Of a DNA stretch of 51,707 bases, positions 4,189 to 23,599 are shown one piece after another; the first letter of the stretch is position 1, and each line of letters begins with the position of its first letter. The position numbers and the translations under genes are program-made. This DNA is from a virus. The stretch is from IMG/VR virus record IMGVR_UViG_3300037155_000078, positions 1-51,707 of that record, one strand, 5' to 3'. The notes beneath the pieces were generated by a model. The model was not told where the DNA came from. It did not search any database and worked only from the letters and a program-made list of their open reading frames with translations.

Positions 4189-5696
4189 TAGATGCCTTTC
4201 CGTTCGCCGGCGTTCGAGCCGTGCGTGATGCTGACGAGGTATGTGAAAGTGTCGAGTAGGTCATCGGCTTCGTCGCCTTTACGACCGATTCTAAAATCCG
4301 AGACCTGCGTGATGAGATGGTTCGCCGAGTGCCCCTTGTGTACCGTCACCTTATCGAATGCTTCCTTGGTCATCTTGACGCCCCCGGCAATGACGTATGG
4401 GCTCGCCGAGATCGCCCTTTCATCTTTTCCGAGAGCCGTGAGCTTTGAGTCGATTGCATACGCCGGGGCGTGCTTCCCCTGAGCCCGGAGATTCGCGGCC
4501 TGTTGGATGAGGACCGTTCCGGTCGCTTTGTCCTCTATGAAGGCCCCCGCTACGCCCCGCCGAGCACCGCAGTACCGCGCGAGTTCTTCGAGCCGGACGT
4601 AGACATTCGGGAGCCAGTCCGCCTGCGCCGCGCCTTCGATCTGCACGAGGTCCCAATCGAGGATGAGCGTCATTTTCGGCTTTGTGAGCGAGTTGTAACT
4701 GAAATACGTGACGGCCGTTGAGTCGTGCTGCTTGCCGCTCTTGATCGCGGTGTCGATAATCGCCCCAACGCTATCGCATCGGTCGGGCATAGGGACCGGC
4801 TGCCCGTCGACGAGCAGGTCATCGATGTTGAAGAACGATGCGCCGCGCGGTCGCGGATCCTGCTGGTACAGCGCGCCCCAAACGTACTCGCCAACGTTGG
4901 CGCGAATGCGCGCGAGCGCTTCCTCGTCCTGCCATGCTGGCCAGAGTGCCGCGCCGAGCGGACGCCCGAGCGGATCGTCGACCGAGTCGCAGAGCGCCGG
5001 CATGTTCACGACCGTCCACCGGTCGCCGCCGTCCGCTTGCGCAGCTAAGAGGCGACCAGCGAGGTCGTCTGAGTTCCATCGTGTTTGTATTACCACTACG
5101 CGTGCGCCCGGCAAAAGGCGGGTGTACACCTCGGCCTGATACCAATTCCACGCGGTGTCGCGAACGGTTTTTGATTCCGCTTCCGCCGCACCCTTGATCG
5201 GATCGTCGATGATGAAAAGTGCGGCTCGCCGTCCGGTTATGCTGCCGCCGACACCCGCTGCACGGTAGTTGCCGCCGTTGGTCGTTCGCCAATCGGAGAC
5301 ATTCTCGCTTCGCAGTTGGTAGCCCAAGACGCGCGAGAAGTGCCGTATGTAATCCTGGATTCGCCCGCTAAAATTCTTCGCGAGTTCGTCGCCGTGGCTT
5401 GCGCCGATGATGTCCATGTTCGGGCGCTGCGCAAAGAACCACGCTGGGAACAGGATCGAGCAATACGTCGACTTCGCTGACCCTGGGGGAAGCAACACCA
5501 GGAGCCGGTCTATCTCACCGGTCGCGACCTTCTCTAGATTTTGGAGTAGTACCCGGTGGTGCGCTGCCGGTGTCTGCCCCCGCGGCGCCAGCGCCCGAAT
5601 CGTCCACGCGACCAGATCCGTCCGGCACAGGTTGTCCCAAGATTGTGCGCTTGTAAGCCTCGGTCTGGGCTGCGCGCTCGTCGTCGGTGAGCTCAT
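4188..5696 (-). CDS. terL: Terminase large subunit
   Basis: A 502-residue packaging motor. The ATPase domain has a Walker A-like loop LLPPGSAKS (about 68-76), Walker B ALFIIDDP (about 159-166, acidic pair DD) and VVVIQTRW with a following DDLAGRLL, the classic coupling region of phage terminases. The nuclease half carries IIDTAIKSGKQHDST, with a metal-binding aspartate, and later FIEDKATGTVL. Its first about 60 codons overlap the small-subunit gene in another frame; downstream in-frame starts would remove little of this. Family assignment is firm, the exact start less so. Confidence 0.95.
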   Translation of the reverse strand: MSSPTTSAQPRPRLTSAQSWDNLCRTDLVAWTIRALAPRGQTPAAHHRVLLQNLEKVATGEIDRLLVLLPPGSAKSTYCSILFPAWFFAQRPNMDIIGASHGDELAKNFSGRIQDYIRHFSRVLGYQLRSENVSDWRTTNGGNYRAAGVGGSITGRRAALFIIDDPIKGAAEAESKTVRDTAWNWYQAEVYTRLLPGARVVVIQTRWNSDDLAGRLLAAQADGGDRWTVVNMPALCDSVDDPLGRPLGAALWPAWQDEEALARIRANVGEYVWGALYQQDPRPRGASFFNIDDLLVDGQPVPMPDRCDSVGAIIDTAIKSGKQHDSTAVTYFSYNSLTKPKMTLILDWDLVQIEGAAQADWLPNVYVRLEELARYCGARRGVAGAFIEDKATGTVLIQQAANLRAQGKHAPAYAIDSKLTALGKDERAISASPYVIAGGVKMTKEAFDKVTVHKGHSANHLITQVSDFRIGRKGDEADDLLDTFTYLVSITHGSNAGERKGI

Positions 5697-12445: not shown

Positions 12446-12997
12446 ATGAGCAGCACCCCGGAAGTCTACGGAGAATACGCTCCGACCCCCGCCAACAAAA
12501 TCGATCTGCCCGATGGAACATACGAGGCCATGATCGAGTCGACCACGCTGGTACGCAACGAGCAAGGCGAACCGGTTGCCAACCGCGACGGCAAGCATCA
12601 GGTCGATGTGTACTTTCGCGTCGCCAATGCAACCGACAGCGGAAACGGACCCGTGAGCGTGCGCCGACGGTTCACGATCAGCTATGGGAAGAACCAGCAG
12701 AACGGCAAATGGGCGCAATGGGCGCAATTCCTTGCGACCGCGCGGCCGGAAGTCCAAGCCGGCGACGAGCGGCAGAAGAAAATCTCGAACATGCATCTCC
12801 AGGGTAAGATTGTGCGGATCGTCGTGGCCGAGAATGAACGCGGCTACGTCGACATCGTGCGGCTGCTGCCGAAGAAGGCCGCCGAGGCGCAGCCCAGCGA
12901 GCAGCGCGCGCCGACGGCGCAGCAGCAGCGCAAACCGGACCCCGAACCCGGGGAGCGATCGTTCCTCGACGACGATCCTGACAGCATACCGTTTTGA
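12446..12997 (+). CDS. SSB-like single-stranded DNA-binding protein
   Basis: A 183-residue protein. Residues about 20-140 form a beta-rich domain (QVDVYFRVANATDSG, VSVRRRFTISYGKNQQNGKW, HLQGKIVRIVVAENERGYVDI) as expected of an OB-fold. A disordered Q/P-rich linker ends in LDDDPDSIPF, which mimics the acidic ...DDDIPF tip by which SSB recruits host replication and repair proteins. The family match is indirect; the tip plus location near the origin make SSB likely. AGGAAACC precedes the ATG. Confidence 0.7.
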   Translation: MSSTPEVYGEYAPTPANKIDLPDGTYEAMIESTTLVRNEQGEPVANRDGKHQVDVYFRVANATDSGNGPVSVRRRFTISYGKNQQNGKWAQWAQFLATARPEVQAGDERQKKISNMHLQGKIVRIVVAENERGYVDIVRLLPKKAAEAQPSEQRAPTAQQQRKPDPEPGERSFLDDDPDSIPF

Positions 12998-13308
12998 TGG
13001 CTAACCAGGCCGGGGGCGGCGCGCAAGCGCCGCTCCCTCCCGACCGATCGCCAATCTTCGAAGCTGCGATCGAACAAGAGGTCCAGAAGCGGCACTACCG
13101 TCTCAAATTTGGGCGCTTCGCGGTTGGAGCCGAGGCGTTCCGCGAGGGCGCGCGTTGGGCGTTTGCGTTCCAACCTTGCTCGGCAGCATCATACCTGAAT
13201 CTCGCGATCCTCCAAGCGAGAGCGCGCACAAACGGCGACCCGCGCGAGGTGCGTCGGCTCGGAGTTTTACTGCGCCAAATCGAGCGCGCATGGAAGCAGA
13301 CAGGATGA
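12997..13308 (+). CDS. Hypothetical protein after SSB
   Basis: A 103-residue protein, ATG at 12997 sharing one base with the SSB stop (TGATG). Helical and basic in its second half (LNLAILQARARTNGDPREVRRLGVLLRQIERAWKQ is interrupted by turns). FGRFAVGAEAFREGARWAF suggests an amphipathic helix. No family is recognised. Confidence 0.6.
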   Translation: MANQAGGGAQAPLPPDRSPIFEAAIEQEVQKRHYRLKFGRFAVGAEAFREGARWAFAFQPCSAASYLNLAILQARARTNGDPREVRRLGVLLRQIERAWKQTG

Positions 13309-13511
13309 ACGGGTGGTGGGTTTTGGGCCTGACTGTTTTCATCACGGTTCCTATGCTCGGGTGGTCCGCGCTCATGGACTACTTGGCCCAACGGCAGATG
13401 CGCCGTGCACCGATCGCCGCCTCTCAGCGGTTTCGCAGAGAGCACGTCCATGAATTGCCCGGATTCGAGGCAACGTACGACGACCTGCCGCAGCCCCGGA
13501 AGAAACCATGA
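13305..13511 (+). CDS. Small membrane protein, MNG family copy 3 (plus strand)
   Basis: A 68-residue protein from the ATG at 13305 that overlaps the upstream stop (ATGA). One membrane helix (about 4-22) is followed by WSALMDYLAQRQMRRAPIAA, closely related to the minus-strand copy at 9092-9298. The C-terminus differs and is not the AARRARRVK type. A longer in-frame reading from 13155 would run through the previous gene. It is unusual as a paralogue placed in the opposite transcription block. Confidence 0.65.
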   Translation: MNGWWVLGLTVFITVPMLGWSALMDYLAQRQMRRAPIAASQRFRREHVHELPGFEATYDDLPQPRKKP

Positions 13512-13754
13512 CGGCCCCCGCTCTGCCCTGTGAACAGGCTGCGAATAACCTGTGGACAACCCGGGGTCTTATCCACAGGTTTTTATGTTTTTCACGGTCC
13601 GAAAAAGTTGTCCACTTTACTCACAATTACGTCCACAGGCTTGCTCGCAAGCCATCCACAGGTGGAAAATGACGGCATGTAAAGAGGGGCCGAATTTATC
13701 CACTTTGCTCACCGTACGGCCACCACCGTTACCGTTCTTTATAGGTATATCTCT
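13512..13754. other. Candidate replication origin with DnaA boxes
   Basis: Spacer of about 240 bases without a convincing gene. It contains a perfect DnaA box TTATCCACA (13569-13577), near-matches TTGTCCACA (reverse strand, 13551-13559), TTGTCCACT (13608-13616), CCATCCACA (13652-13660) and TTATCCACT (13696-13704), and a looser one ending at 13637. AT-rich stretches lie at about 13578-13630 and 13735-13760. The next gene encodes a DnaA domain-IV-like protein. Together this looks like a DnaA-type origin or a DnaA-controlled promoter. Confidence 0.7.
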
Positions 13755-13871
13755 CTGAAAACGGCAGCAACGGCGGGACCCTTCGACCTGTGGGCAACCG
13801 CCTATCTGAGCGGCAAGACCAAAGAGAAACCGCCGCCGCGACCGAAAGACGGCAAACCGCCGACCGAGTTC

Positions 13872-14186
13872 GTGATCGCGCACATCGAGGGCATCTTCGG
13901 AATGAAGCTCGCGGAGGTCATGCGCCGGCGCGGGAACGCTGGGCGGCCGAACCGACAAACGATTCAGGTCAAGAGCTATGCGATCTGGCTCGCAACCGAG
14001 GTCACCGCCGATTCCCTCATGGAGATCGCGCGCGCATTCGGATACCGCGACCACACGACGGTTATGTACTTTCGCAATATCGTGCGCGCGCAGTTCAAGA
14101 CCGGATACGATCGCGATCGGCTCGAGGCGGCGTGCGAGACGTTACGCCGAAGCTGGGATAAATTCGTCAAGAACGGAGCATCATGA
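13872..14186 (+). CDS. DnaA domain IV-like DNA-binding protein
   Basis: A 104-residue protein equal to little more than DnaA domain IV. After IIEAVA-like helices (VIAHIEGIFGMKLAEVM) and AIWLATEVTADSLMEIARAF comes GYRDHTTVMYFRNIV (RDHTTV at about 59-64), the DnaA signature contacting DnaA boxes. It lacks the AAA+ ATPase, so it should bind boxes without loading helicase by itself. Start is GTG at 13872, but the frame stays open upstream to 13683 and reads protein-like from about 13755 (PFDLWATAYLSGKTKEK); a CTG at 13755 is a possible non-standard start. Confidence 0.8.
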   Translation: MIAHIEGIFGMKLAEVMRRRGNAGRPNRQTIQVKSYAIWLATEVTADSLMEIARAFGYRDHTTVMYFRNIVRAQFKTGYDRDRLEAACETLRRSWDKFVKNGAS

Positions 14187-14488
14187 GCCAACAGGATCCA
14201 CCGAACATCCTCGAGCTCGAGCGACGCGCCAGCGAAGATGACGGCGCGGGATTTCTCACGCTCTCGCCCGAGAAGGCGCAAGCCAAATGTCACACGGGCG
14301 AAGGCGCGCGCTGCTGCCGCTATCTTTTCAGAGGTTCCTCTGGACTCGAGTGCGGATATCGGAACGAGATCGCTCGAGCGTGGGCCGATGCGAAGGTGGC
14401 GCGTTTTGAATTCCTCGCGCGCAGCGGGCCGTGCGCCGATCCCGACGACGACCTCTCGGAAGCGAAACCGTACGAGGGGCCAGCGTGA
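14183..14488 (+). CDS. Hypothetical protein with cysteine cluster
   Basis: A 101-residue protein with CHTGEGARCCRYLF and a later GLECGY, perhaps a metal site, and an acidic end (CADPDDDLSEAK). ATGA overlap with the DnaA-like gene, GTGA overlap with the nuclease-like gene. No family is recognised. Confidence 0.6.
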   Translation: MSQQDPPNILELERRASEDDGAGFLTLSPEKAQAKCHTGEGARCCRYLFRGSSGLECGYRNEIARAWADAKVARFEFLARSGPCADPDDDLSEAKPYEGPA

Positions 14489-14814
14489 TCGCTCGCGGCA
14501 ACCTGCCCACGAGCGGCATGAACCGCCTTGAAGCAGCCTGGGCATCCGACCTCGAAGTGCGCCGACGCGTGGGCGAGATCGCCTGGTTCAGGTACGAAGG
14601 CGTAACCCTTAAACTCGCCCACGACACGCGCTACACGCCCGACTTTGCCGTCATGCTCGCTAACGGAGAAATGGAGATGCACGAAACGAAGGGCGGATTC
14701 ATGCGCGAAGATTCGTTCATCAAGATCAAACTCGCGGCGAGCCTTTTCCCGTTCCGGTTTTACCTCATCCGTCGCGACAAGAGCGGCCTGACCATCAAGG
14801 AGATTTCACCGTGA
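14485..14814 (+). CDS. PD-(D/E)XK nuclease-like protein
   Basis: A 109-residue protein from a GTG at 14485 (GTGA overlap). The core TRYTPDFAVMLANGEMEMHETKGGFMREDSFIKIK (about 50-85) has the P-D-(x)n-E-x-K layout of PD-(D/E)XK nucleases, here PDF...HETKG, and matches the DUF1064 / Vsr-like / phage Holliday-junction resolvase type. It would cut or resolve DNA branches in replication or packaging. Confidence 0.7.
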   Translation: MIARGNLPTSGMNRLEAAWASDLEVRRRVGEIAWFRYEGVTLKLAHDTRYTPDFAVMLANGEMEMHETKGGFMREDSFIKIKLAASLFPFRFYLIRRDKSGLTIKEISP

Positions 14815-14988
14815 CCAAACGCCAGGCAAACGCAATCGCCGCCCAACTACGACGCGCCGGCCTCTCTCCTCGAGATGGCCGAAGGCGATCCTACCCCCAC
14901 AGTTATCCTCGCTGCCGCCGTGCTGGCAAGCGAAGCGACGGCGAAGATCGTGTCTGACCTCTACGCGAAACCCGACGCGAAGGCGTGA
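14811..14988 (+). pseudogene. Small gene split by an apparent frameshift
   Basis: A GTG at 14811 (GTGA overlap) opens a frame that reads well for about 17 codons (TKRQANAIAAQLRRAG) and then turns arginine-rich until a stop at 14955-14957. The +1-shifted frame reads SLLEMAEGDPTPTVILAA up to 14988 and overlaps the next start by GTGA. The two halves fit one about 57-residue protein if a base is lost or gained near the CTCTCTCCTC run at 14861-14870. Alternatively the ATG at 14875 starts a separate 37-residue gene. Confidence 0.45.
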
Positions 14989-16359
14989 GATTCGGCAGCG
15001 TCTGCTCAGGGATCGAGGGTGCATCGGTCGCGTGGGAATCGCTCGGTTGGAAACCGGCGTTCGTCGCGGAGATCGATCCCTTCGCGAACGCAGTACTCGC
15101 CCATCACTATCCCGACGTCCCAAACGTCGGAGACTTCACAAAGATCGGAACGAACGATGTCGGATCAGTTGACCTTCTTATCGGCGGAACGCCCTGCCAA
15201 GATTTCTCCGTGGCGGGACTTCGCGCGGGCCTTGCTGGCGATCGCGGTGCGCTCACCGTTGAATTTGTGCACCTCGCTGAACGCCTTCGCCCCCGCTGGC
15301 TGGTATGGGAGAACGTCCCCGGTGTCTTGTCGGCTGACGGGGGGGGGGGCATTTGGAATCTTCCTCGGGGCGCTGGGGAAACTCGGGTATGGGTTCGCTT
15401 ACCGAATTCTTGACGCTCAGCACTTCGGAGTTCCACAGCGACGCCGTCGCGTGTTCGTTGTCGGATATCTTGGAGATTGGCGACCTGCCGCAGCGGTACT
15501 ATTTGAGCGCGAAAGCCTGCGTCGGGATTCTGCGCCGCGCAGAGAAACGCGGGAGATCGTTACCGCCCTTACTGCAAACGGCCTTGGAGGGGGCGGCCCG
15601 GACGACAACCTAGCGCAAGGCGGCCAACTGTTGGTCGCCTACGAGGTCGCCCATTCGCTGCGCGCCGATGGGTTCGATGCGAGCGAGGATGGCACCGGAC
15701 GCGGAACGCCGCTTGTCGCGACAGTTCTCGGCGACGTTTCGCATACGCTCACGGCGTACAAGGGGCGCGGGCCAGTTCAAGAGGACGGCACCGGGCGAGG
15801 TGCGCCAATCGTCGCGTTCTCATGCAAGGATCACGGCGCAGACGCGGGTGACCTCGCACCCACGTTGCGAGCGATGGAGTTCGATGGTTCTCACGCGAAC
15901 GCTGGCGGTCAGTTAGCAATCGCGTACGGAATCTCAAGCGATGCGATCGACCGATCCGGCGAGGGCGCGGATGGCACGGCTGCGGTTCGAGCTGGCCTTG
16001 GCATCGTCGAGGACGCATCTCCAACCCTTCGCGCAGGGCATGCGAACGCGGTAGCATTCAATCTTCGTGGCAGAGAAAACGGCGCACAACCTGAGATCGA
16101 CGGCGATGGCCTGGCCGCCATACGCGCCGCATCTGGAGGCTCGTCACGATCCTACGTCGCGACGAGCGCCGTTCGCCGGCTCACTCCCGTCGAGTGTGAA
16201 AAACTCCAGGGATTTCCGCCCAACTATACGCTCGTCCCGTACCGCAAGAAGCCCGCTGCCGACGGCCCGCGCTACCGAGCTTTGGGAAACTCGTTCGCCG
16301 TGCCCGTCGTCCGCTGGATTGGCGAACGGATCGCCGCGATCGAAACCCTGCTCGACTAG
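14985..16359 (+). CDS. C5-cytosine DNA methyltransferase, frame broken at poly-G
   Basis: The 5' frame (GTG 14985, GTGA overlap) has motif I FGSVCSGIEGASVAWESLGW, motif IV GGTPCQDFS with the catalytic cysteine, and motif VI WENVPG. The 3' frame, shifted by one, has motif VIII QRRRRVFVVG, a target region with repeated S-P-T-L-R-A units, motif IX RLTPVECEKLQGFP and motif X ALGNSFAVPVV. The break is at 11 consecutive G (15339-15349); ten would give one intact 457-residue enzyme. As read, translation stops at 15411-15413. Either a sequence error or a genuine on/off tract. Confidence 0.85.
15339..15349 (+). repeat. G11 homopolymer tract inside the C5 methyltransferase
   Basis: Eleven consecutive G residues between motifs VI and VIII. 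Loss of one G restores the full methyltransferase frame. It lies at codons for a glycine run (SADGGG then AFG), which tolerates length changes. Confidence 0.9.
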
Positions 16360-16592
16360 GCCCGAACCCGCCGATCCGCCGCCCAGGCCGCCCGGAGTTT
16401 CGCAAGCGGCGTCCGCGTCACGCGAGCCAGCACCGGCAACTGCTCCAACTTGGGAAGATTGTCGTTCGCCCCGGTCCCCCCGGAGCGCCAGCGTTGGGCC
16501 GTCCTGACCGTTACCCCGCACCGGCGAGCCAGAAGGGCGCTCGGGTAGGGGAGGAGGATGGCGGCGAGCTTGGAGCCGGGTTTCTGGGCCAT
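16356..16592 (-). CDS. Helix-turn-helix regulator, repressor-like
   Basis: A 78-residue protein, the only clear minus-strand gene inside the plus block. PSALLARRCGVTVRTAQRWRSGG (about 20-42) is a good helix-turn-helix, with LPKLEQLPVLARVTRTPLAKLRAAW behind it. ATG at 16592 has no visible ribosome binding site (leaderless translation is common for phage repressors); TTG at 16601 is an alternative. Its end overlaps the C5 methyltransferase stop by 4 bases, tail to tail. It probably controls the divergent plus-strand promoter, itself, or both. Confidence 0.7.
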   Translation of the reverse strand: MAQKPGSKLAAILLPYPSALLARRCGVTVRTAQRWRSGGTGANDNLPKLEQLPVLARVTRTPLAKLRAAWAADRRVRA

Positions 16593-16672
16593 ACGACACA
16601 ATACGACGAGGGGGAGATTAAATCTTTGCCGGACCCCTTGCGTTGCGGTATCCGATGCTGTAACGTAAGGAC
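16593..16672. promoter_or_regulatory. Divergent regulator/early-gene control region
   Basis: An 80-base gap between the minus-strand regulator and the plus-strand operon beginning at 16673. Two ATACGAC direct repeats at 16591-16597 and 16601-16607 are spaced exactly one helical turn at the regulator's start and could be an autoregulatory operator. For the plus strand, TTGCCG near 16626 followed by TATCCG about 17 bases later is a weak promoter candidate; GTAAGG precedes the ATG. Confidence 0.45.
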
Positions 16673-16849
16673 ATGAAGACGACCCCGCCGCTGTCCACTC
16701 CGGTTTGCGACGAAGCGCGTACCCTACCGACGTTCAAGCAACGGCTGAAGCATTACCGGACCTGCAGCGATCCACGATGCAAGGCGCGCAGCGCAGCAGC
16801 GTCCGAAGTAGGGCGCATGATAGCGCGCGACAATCGGGCACTGCGATGA
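16673..16849 (+). CDS. Small basic cysteine protein
   Basis: A 58-residue protein (LPTFKQRLKHYRTCSDPRCK, then ASEVGRMIARDNRALR), preceded by AAGG. It has a CSDPRC knuckle and a basic helical end, so nucleic-acid binding is possible. It overlaps the next gene by ATGA. It is the first gene after the regulator's divergent region. No family is recognised. Confidence 0.55.
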   Translation: MKTTPPLSTPVCDEARTLPTFKQRLKHYRTCSDPRCKARSAAASEVGRMIARDNRALR

Positions 16850-22152: not shown

Positions 22153-22491
22153 TTAGGCCCCGGCCGCGACGGCCGCGGATGCTGCTGGCACCGACGGTGC
22201 GGCGGTCGGGTTGACTGCGGCGAGAGCGGTCGCAAGACCGGCGCTGGCGCTCGCCACTTGCGCATCCTCGGCCGAGAAGTCGGATCCGGCCGGCGCCACG
22301 GCTTCGAGCGCGGTGAACTTCGCCTGGGCGGCGGTGACGTACGCGGTTTGTGCCTTCAGGAGGGCGTCGAGGTCCTGATCGAAGGTTGCCTGGGTTACAG
22401 CCATAGTGGTGATCGCTTTCTGCAGAAAGTGGTGAGAGGTGGCGATCGCGAGCAGCACGACGCCGCAGGCGATCCAGACCGTTTCATTCAT
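22153..22491 (-). CDS. Membrane protein with coiled-coil, lysis-module end
   Basis: A 112-residue protein: N-terminal membrane helix (WIACGVVLLAIATSHHFL, about 5-22), a helical soluble part (TFDQDLDALLKAQTAYVTAAQAKF) and an alanine/proline-rich end. Topology resembles an i-spanin, or a membrane-anchored accessory; not proven. The ATG at 22491 overlaps the endonuclease stop (ATGA). An internal MAVTQATFDQ start could give a soluble form. Confidence 0.6.
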   Translation of the reverse strand: MNETVWIACGVVLLAIATSHHFLQKAITTMAVTQATFDQDLDALLKAQTAYVTAAQAKFTALEAVAPAGSDFSAEDAQVASASAGLATALAAVNPTAAPSVPAASAAVAAGA

Positions 22492-23306
22492 TGTACCCCA
22501 CCTTTGAATCCTCGCTGCGCGCCGGACCACGCCCAATCGAACGTGGCCGGCAACCCGGCGATGTTCTTGGCGGGCCGCCGGTTTCTTGCCGAGGCGCTCA
22601 TTTTAGCGCGAGTTTCGGCTGAAGCCTTTGAACCGAGGCGACTGGTATTGCGTAGTGCGGCCGCCCTCATGTTGGCTCGCGCTTCCGACGAAACGAGTCT
22701 GCCGCGTTGCGCTTGGCTCATCCTGGCACGGCTTTCAGGTGACGCCTTTTTACCAAGGTTCCCTCTTCGTATTTTCTCCTTAGTTTCAGGCGTATGCGCT
22801 TTCCCTAACCGATAGGAGTTGCCTAGGCTCGCCTTGCCAATTTTGGCTTTAGCGGCGTCGCCGTGCCTGTACCCGGACTTCCTATTGGCATGTTTATACC
22901 CAAGAGAATTCCGGTTCCCAATTCTAGCAACGCTCATCCTAGCGCAAGTCTCAGCACTGAGCTTTTTACCGATTTTCGCCGCTCGCATTTTTATCTTCGC
23001 GGCATCGCTATGTCGGTATCCTAATTGACTTCCAGCGCTCGGCGCGATGTTGTAACCGGGCTTGCGCGCATCCAGCCAGTGCTGCTCGCGCTCGATTAGC
23101 TTGGCGGTGTCGCTAATCTCTTCCAGAATCTCGAATACAAAAGAATCTGCGCCGTACTTCAACCAAGCGCGTTGCAAGTAGCGGCTATGATGACGCCCGC
23201 AACCTAGCGTGCGGCGATGCTCACGAAAGCGCTTCTTGAATAAAGCGGCGCTGCCGATGTACTCAACGCCATTCACAAGATTACGAATCCGATAGACGCC
23301 TCCCAC
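22488..23306 (-). CDS. GIY-YIG homing endonuclease with fused host-gene tail
   Basis: About 272 residues from a GTG at 23306. N-terminal GIY-YIG nuclease (GVYRIRNLVNGVEYIGSAAL, then RFREHRRTL and an FxxLE-like VFEILEEI). Middle: many NUMOD3-type DNA-binding repeats (SAETCARMSVARIGN, SPESRARMSQAQRG, SSEARANMRAA, SAETRAKMSASARN). The last about 27 residues, AKNIAGLPATFDWAWSGAQR and GFKGGVQ, are homologous to the end of the preceding gene at 23309-23599, so the element is fused in frame to a copy of its target gene's 3' end. Confidence 0.88.
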   Translation of the reverse strand: MGGVYRIRNLVNGVEYIGSAALFKKRFREHRRTLGCGRHHSRYLQRAWLKYGADSFVFEILEEISDTAKLIEREQHWLDARKPGYNIAPSAGSQLGYRHSDAAKIKMRAAKIGKKLSAETCARMSVARIGNRNSLGYKHANRKSGYRHGDAAKAKIGKASLGNSYRLGKAHTPETKEKIRRGNLGKKASPESRARMSQAQRGRLVSSEARANMRAAALRNTSRLGSKASAETRAKMSASARNRRPAKNIAGLPATFDWAWSGAQRGFKGGVQ

Positions 23307-23308
23307 GG

Positions 23309-23599
23309 CTACTTGAAGCCCTTCTGTGCGCCGTTCCAAAACCAATCAAAAACCGCTGGCAGGCCAGCAGTCAGGTTTTTGGCGGTGTCGCTCACCTCTT
23401 GGTTCAAGTTTCCCCGCGCCATCCGCTCGAACAGCGTCGCGTGCGGGGTCGAGCCTTCGGCGACGCGGTCGACCAGCGCAATCACGATCGTCGCGTTGCG
23501 AACGAACCAGGCTTTGAAGAGAGCCGCGTCGCCGGAGGCGGTAAGCTGCGCCGCGCCGACCGCGATCGCGGTCGACGCGGCTTCGAGTATCCGCAGCAT
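23309..23599 (-). CDS. Helical protein, target gene of the GIY-YIG element
   Basis: A 96-residue helical protein with small hydrophobic stretches (AASTAIAVGAAQLTASG, NATIVIALVDRV). It ends LTAGLPAVFDWFWNGAQKGFK, of which a diverged copy ends the neighbouring endonuclease. It lies in the lysis / membrane gene group. The function is unknown. Confidence 0.65.
   Translation of the reverse strand: MLRILEAASTAIAVGAAQLTASGDAALFKAWFVRNATIVIALVDRVAEGSTPHATLFERMARGNLNQEVSDTAKNLTAGLPAVFDWFWNGAQKGFK

Follow-up and report, generated by a model that had tools for sequence, protein, structure and literature searches.

What is the role of a phage gene that encodes the DNA-binding domain IV of DnaA and lies directly behind a cluster of DnaA boxes? 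This question is raised by the window analyzed here, the full 51,707 bases of IMGVR_UViG_3300037155_000078, a complete virus record with a 127-bp direct terminal repeat. As it encodes a large terminase, a portal protein, a tail sheath and baseplate proteins, we assign the window to a contractile-tailed phage (myophage); when genome contigs were scanned for the host, neither the domain IV protein nor TerL retrieved a relative. The gene is part of an early operon on the plus strand (about 11.2–22 kb), which also holds DNA methyltransferases and a gene for a Holliday-junction-resolvase-like protein. Pfam and PHROGs searches with a few dozen ORFs of the window, including part of the small ones, identified no helicase loader, primase, polymerase, helicase or Rep/plasmid-type initiator. 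Weak side hits inside methyltransferase matches were not counted in this tally of replication proteins.

The protein encoded by this gene gives the single PF08299 (Bac_DnaA_C)/DnaA match in the record (E = 5e-10; 39.7 bits compared to a cut-off of 31.5), and the DnaA equivalog model TIGR00362 aligns with it over positions 372–421 of 437 only, which correspond to domain IV. The AAA+ domain III is absent from the 143-aa frame and no further DnaA match occurs in the record, which bears out the initial annotation in its description of a domain IV without the AAA+ ATPase. An AlphaFold model (pLDDT 81) superposes on two structures of the DnaA DNA-binding domain bound to box DNA, with target-normalised TM-scores of 0.86 to 3pvp_A and 0.79 to 1j1v. 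The length of 104 residues given initially is probably too short. The frame is open from about 13683 (upstream stop at about 13680) and contains no ATG, GTG or TTG between that stop and 13872, and a start at GTG 13872 (104-aa ORF, 13872–14186) would truncate the first domain IV helix. Since the homologue in a related record, IMGVR_UViG_3300050138_000561 (hereafter L002; 72% identical over 143 residues, 34.3 bits to PF08299), has an ATG exactly at CTG 13755 of the window, the protein probably starts at this CTG and comprises 143 aa.

Whether such a protein would read a DnaA box depends on residues that, by E. coli DnaA numbering, we take to be R399, R407, Q408, P423 and D433–T436. The DNA-reading D433, H434, T435 and T436 are intact, position 399 is ambiguous because of an insertion, and three residues are changed (R407K, Q408S and P423M). 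The resulting K/S pair at 407/408 is confined to the window and L002 among 97 sequences. With R407, Q408 and P423 altered, it is not certain that the phage protein binds the boxes. The N-terminus keeps the motif F-x-LWAT-x-Y-x-SGK, followed by a proline/lysine-rich linker, an arrangement that may recall a short tether replacing DnaA domains I–III.

Near the gene, the early operon has a single long gap, the spacer directly before it (13512–13754, 243 bp), where GC content drops to 44–50%, compared to 61% for the genome. Within 13540–13705, the spacer contains eight sites that differ from TTATCCACA at no more than two positions (Table 1). One perfect and four near-perfect boxes had been described; the perfect box stands, while the near-perfect count has to be replaced by two boxes with one mismatch and five with two. 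This is the densest box place in the 51.7-kb genome. Genomes simulated with a dinucleotide Markov model (n = 40) held at most four such sites per 280 bp, and none of 5000 spacer shuffles (mean 0.7) equalled the observed number, so that the predicted excess over shuffled sequence holds. The spacer combines two kinds of sites: single sites followed by GG (TNTCCACAGG), and 18-bp head-to-tail pairs of the form TTRTCCAC-TTTRCTCAC, present in two copies. Their 17-mer TTRTCCACTTTRCTCAC occurs exactly twice (13608 and 13696; expected 0.01) and nowhere else at up to two mismatches. DnaA-trio-like repeats after the boxes were unconvincing by eye, and the two TTTRCTCAC stretches read better as the second, weak box of a tandem. 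The AT-rich stretch directly before the gene start is, judged by its composition, a candidate unwinding element or leader.

Table 1 Features of the spacer and its neighbouring genes (window coordinates)
Feature	Position	Strand	Basis or remark
Early gene with SSB-like acidic C-terminal tail DDDPDSIPF	12446..12997	+	Tail only
Two CCTGTG(A/G)ACA box-like sites, 22 bp apart: 13527 TGTTCACAGG, 13549 TTGTCCACAGG	13525..13561	- (sites)	Kept in L002 with identical spacing
Box with one mismatch, TTGTCCACA	13551	-	Match to TTATCCACA
Perfect DnaA box TTATCCACA, GG after	13569..13577	+	Box match; no counterpart at equivalent L002 position
Boxes with two mismatches	13540, 13661	-	Matches to TTATCCACA
Boxes with two mismatches	13608, 13617, 13652	+	Matches to TTATCCACA
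Composite tandem site, copy 1: TTGTCCACT-TTACTCACA, a head-to-tail pair of box-like 9-mers	13608..13625	+	Kept in L002 5866-5883
Box-like site ACGTCCACAGG	13629..13639	+	Core kept at L002 5887 (CTATCCACAGG)
Box-like site CCATCCACAGG	13652..13662	+	Within stretch missing from L002
Box with one mismatch, TTATCCACT	13696	+	Match to TTATCCACA
Composite tandem site, copy 2: TTATCCACT-TTGCTCACC	13696..13713	+	Kept in L002 5932-5948
AT-rich stretch before gene start, CGTTACCGTTCTTTATAGGTATATCTCT	13727..13754	+	Partly kept in L002 (TCTTTATAnnTAT); sequence only
Stand-alone DnaA domain IV gene, probably 143 aa from CTG	13755..14186	+	PF08299, TIGR00362 domain IV only, relative's ATG, AlphaFold model
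Ninth box match	13789	-	Inside domain IV gene
Holliday-junction-resolvase-like gene	14485..14814	+	phrog_190, E 1.3e-18; downstream of domain IV gene, common early operon

L002 keeps cluster and gene together, with equal composite sites and spacing. Its spacer retains CCTGTG-ACA--CTGCGA-TAACCTGTGGACAACC, TCCAC--TACTCACAATT, TCCACAGG and TTATCC-C-TT-CTCACCG, and the architecture is conserved even though the perfect box is not. Over its whole length, the spacer is about half identical between the two phages. The idea that the box columns are better conserved than the remaining spacer had to be discarded: 54% versus 49% is not a significant difference, as 65 of 256 circular shifts were as good. 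A further relative, L024, is linked to the window by its terminase (56%) and equivalent capsid genes. In place of the window's module it carries another replication module, whose ORFs were assigned by eye as helicase, RecT-like and exonuclease-like, and it has neither the domain IV gene nor the box cluster.

We tentatively favor, at slightly less than an even chance, a phage origin or control region that is bound by the 143-aa protein and whose boxes are probably shared with host DnaA. The spacer and the following gene would then form a replication-start module, with the single TNTCCACAGG sites and the two 18-bp tandem sites as an origin-like site to which the protein would bind through its DnaA domain IV. 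Because the AAA+ motor is missing, the protein would not build a DnaA filament alone; most likely, it would mark or shape the origin and work with host DnaA, itself able to bind these boxes. Alternatively, it may bring in the host replisome via its N-terminal motif on the proline-rich tether. Box binding, origin activity and partner recruitment are steps that we infer. A bolder version, in which an AAA+-less DnaA with a tethering peptide takes the place of host DnaA on a dedicated box/tandem-box origin and supplies the host helicase there with no ATP-driven filament, seems to us distinctly unlikely.

The initial annotation had likewise read the region as a phage replication origin with a dedicated box-binding protein. 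The box cluster and the AAA+-less protein are real and their arrangement is conserved in L002, which supports this description in part; origin function of the spacer is plausible. The suggested check by cumulative GC skew gave a divided answer. The curve reaches its lowest point at 14.9 kb, runs flat between 10 and 28 kb and has a whole-sequence range exceeding that of 500 block shuffles, which is weakly consistent with an origin near the spacer. Skew at third codon positions does not reverse and lends no support to a replication switch, and we therefore do not treat GC skew as proof of an origin.

The strongest rival to the origin reading, possible but rather unlikely in our estimate, is autoregulation of the gene's own promoter, much as DnaA regulates its own: the spacer would be an operator instead of an origin, with the protein and host DnaA acting on it to control transcription of this gene and of the downstream operon. 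The boxes stop about 40 bp short of the start codon, within the one long gap near the gene, and autoregulation usually has this layout, a helix-turn-helix protein whose sites lie in the 5' region of its own gene. DnaA is an established transcription factor with dnaA first among its targets (PMC8203912). Against an operator, a scan of 13300–13900 for promoters of the sigma-70-like type found none; at least seven sites over 170 bp, including tandem pairs, also exceed what a simple operator needs.

A further line of evidence is how often the two halves occur together in phages. An alignment query confirmed 490 loci with short DnaA domain IV genes in viral contigs, whereas single-sequence patterns of E. 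coli domain IV gave no matches there; many further short domain IV proteins are found among annotated phage genes and in a viral structure library. In other phages, these genes adjoin replication genes (SSB and Sak, replisome organizer, replication proteins, primase, DUF1376). A box cluster within 2.5 kb that lies well above shuffles was seen in only three of the 97 loci scored: the window, L002 and L005, the last being a contaminating Acinetobacter oriC that acts as a positive control. Two other loci reached the nominal threshold, each with a single one-mismatch box, and a whole-record search of 38 records gave no other cluster elsewhere among the matches listed. Of about 96 phage loci that encode the domain, only the window and L002 showed the pairing. 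We reject the view that domain IV phages generally carry boxes, since most have none near the gene. About 1.66 Mb of other viral DNA contained no cluster with the window's score, so that accidental adjacency to a box-binding gene is unlikely, with the reservation that the finding was chosen for that feature.

Box arrays also occur on their own. A 16-base probe from the spacer retrieved viral contigs with strong arrays, several of them carrying terminase or portal genes, and a PF08299 gene was present in none of the 13 checked, many of which are fragments. Very dense examples without the domain IV gene (L256, 5052–5352; L251, 846–1007; L261, 3904–4056) hold up to ~20 boxes per 300 bp; they may be either phage origins that depend on host DnaA or decoys. 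As the protein mostly occurs without nearby boxes and strong arrays occur without the protein, neither needs the other: box arrays and domain IV proteins are separate recurring phage features, which the window lineage combines.

This separation is relevant to a reading that we consider unlikely, in which the boxes form a phage origin that recruits host DnaA only, while the protein has an unrelated role, such as covering the boxes of the host origin and thereby halting host initiation. Strong arrays in terminase- or portal-bearing contigs lacking a domain IV gene imply that arrays work without the protein, and many phages have the protein without boxes. Yet dense clusters are rare, this lineage has kept gene and cluster side by side, and a box-blocking protein would also block the phage boxes unless it preferred different sites. 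The same protein-free arrays would fit a decoy rather than an origin, one that titrates host DnaA and so blocks host initiation in infected cells. We regard this as very improbable here, given that a handful of boxes is few compared to those of the host chromosome, except at a high phage copy number, and that the adjacent domain IV gene would be left unexplained.

Several observations concern the surrounding genes. The early gene upstream of the spacer had been called SSB-like, an identity we do not uphold: profile searches found no OB-fold or family match, a low-confidence model of its product gave no significant structural match, and only the tail resembles SSB. L002 has a gene at the equivalent position (4224–4610) whose product shows no detectable sequence kinship; both proteins end in an SSB-like acidic tip, DDSELPF in L002 and DDDPDSIPF in the window. 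Further downstream, a C5 cytosine methyltransferase gene (about 14985–16359) is split into two frames at a G run (15341–15349), either by a sequencing slip or by a real frameshift. A segment of 322 bp (16356–16677) is 96% identical to L021 3388–3709, compared to ~76% for the remainder of both phages, which reflects either recent exchange or strong constraint; a minus-strand frame in this segment resembles a small helix-turn-helix regulator. Between the early and structural regions lies a GIY-YIG homing endonuclease with NUMOD3 repeats (22491–23345).

Among known systems, the closest likeness is to the stand-alone PF08299 proteins of other tailed phages, such as Rhizobium phage RHph_N28_2, phage C72C1, Myoviridae ctOK67, Cellulophaga phi46:3, Tenacibaculum Gundel_1 and Pseudanabaena Pam3, which are short, lack the AAA+ part and are encoded in a replication or early region. 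They differ in having no box cluster within 2.5 kb in those tested and none elsewhere among the matches listed for 37 records. The arrays of L256, L251, L261 and L259 share with the window dense TTATCCACA/TTGTCCACA clusters in phage DNA, but these contigs, many of them fragments, have no PF08299 gene, and their boxes are more numerous and closer to consensus. Bacterial oriC with DnaA offers boxes, an AT-rich stretch and domain IV, and the oriC control L005 gives a similar cluster; the window, in contrast, lacks domains I and III (AAA+) and has fewer, weaker boxes. In phage lambda, the origin-binding protein O is encoded beside its own repeated sites at ori lambda and tethers the host helicase. 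The window resembles it in layout, with the gene of a putative site-binding protein adjoining repeated sites, whereas O is not a DnaA domain and no P-like loader was found among the scanned window ORFs. The Rickettsia plasmids pRF and pRM are likewise mobile elements with their own DnaA-like gene but differ as plasmids with ParA; parA and dnaA are reported to be essential for Rickettsia plasmid maintenance (PMC9004397, PMC1800911).

The initial view that a trimmed DnaA is little described applies to its function and not to its occurrence: the protein is abundant, already annotated in phages and carried by hundreds of them, and we found no paper on its function in the full-text, open-licence literature. 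The window lineage is the one case found with likely sites beside the gene and therefore offers a clean test of initiation versus competition with host DnaA versus gene regulation. Should the protein prove to serve replication with no AAA+ motor, origin recognition would be separated from origin opening in a DnaA system.
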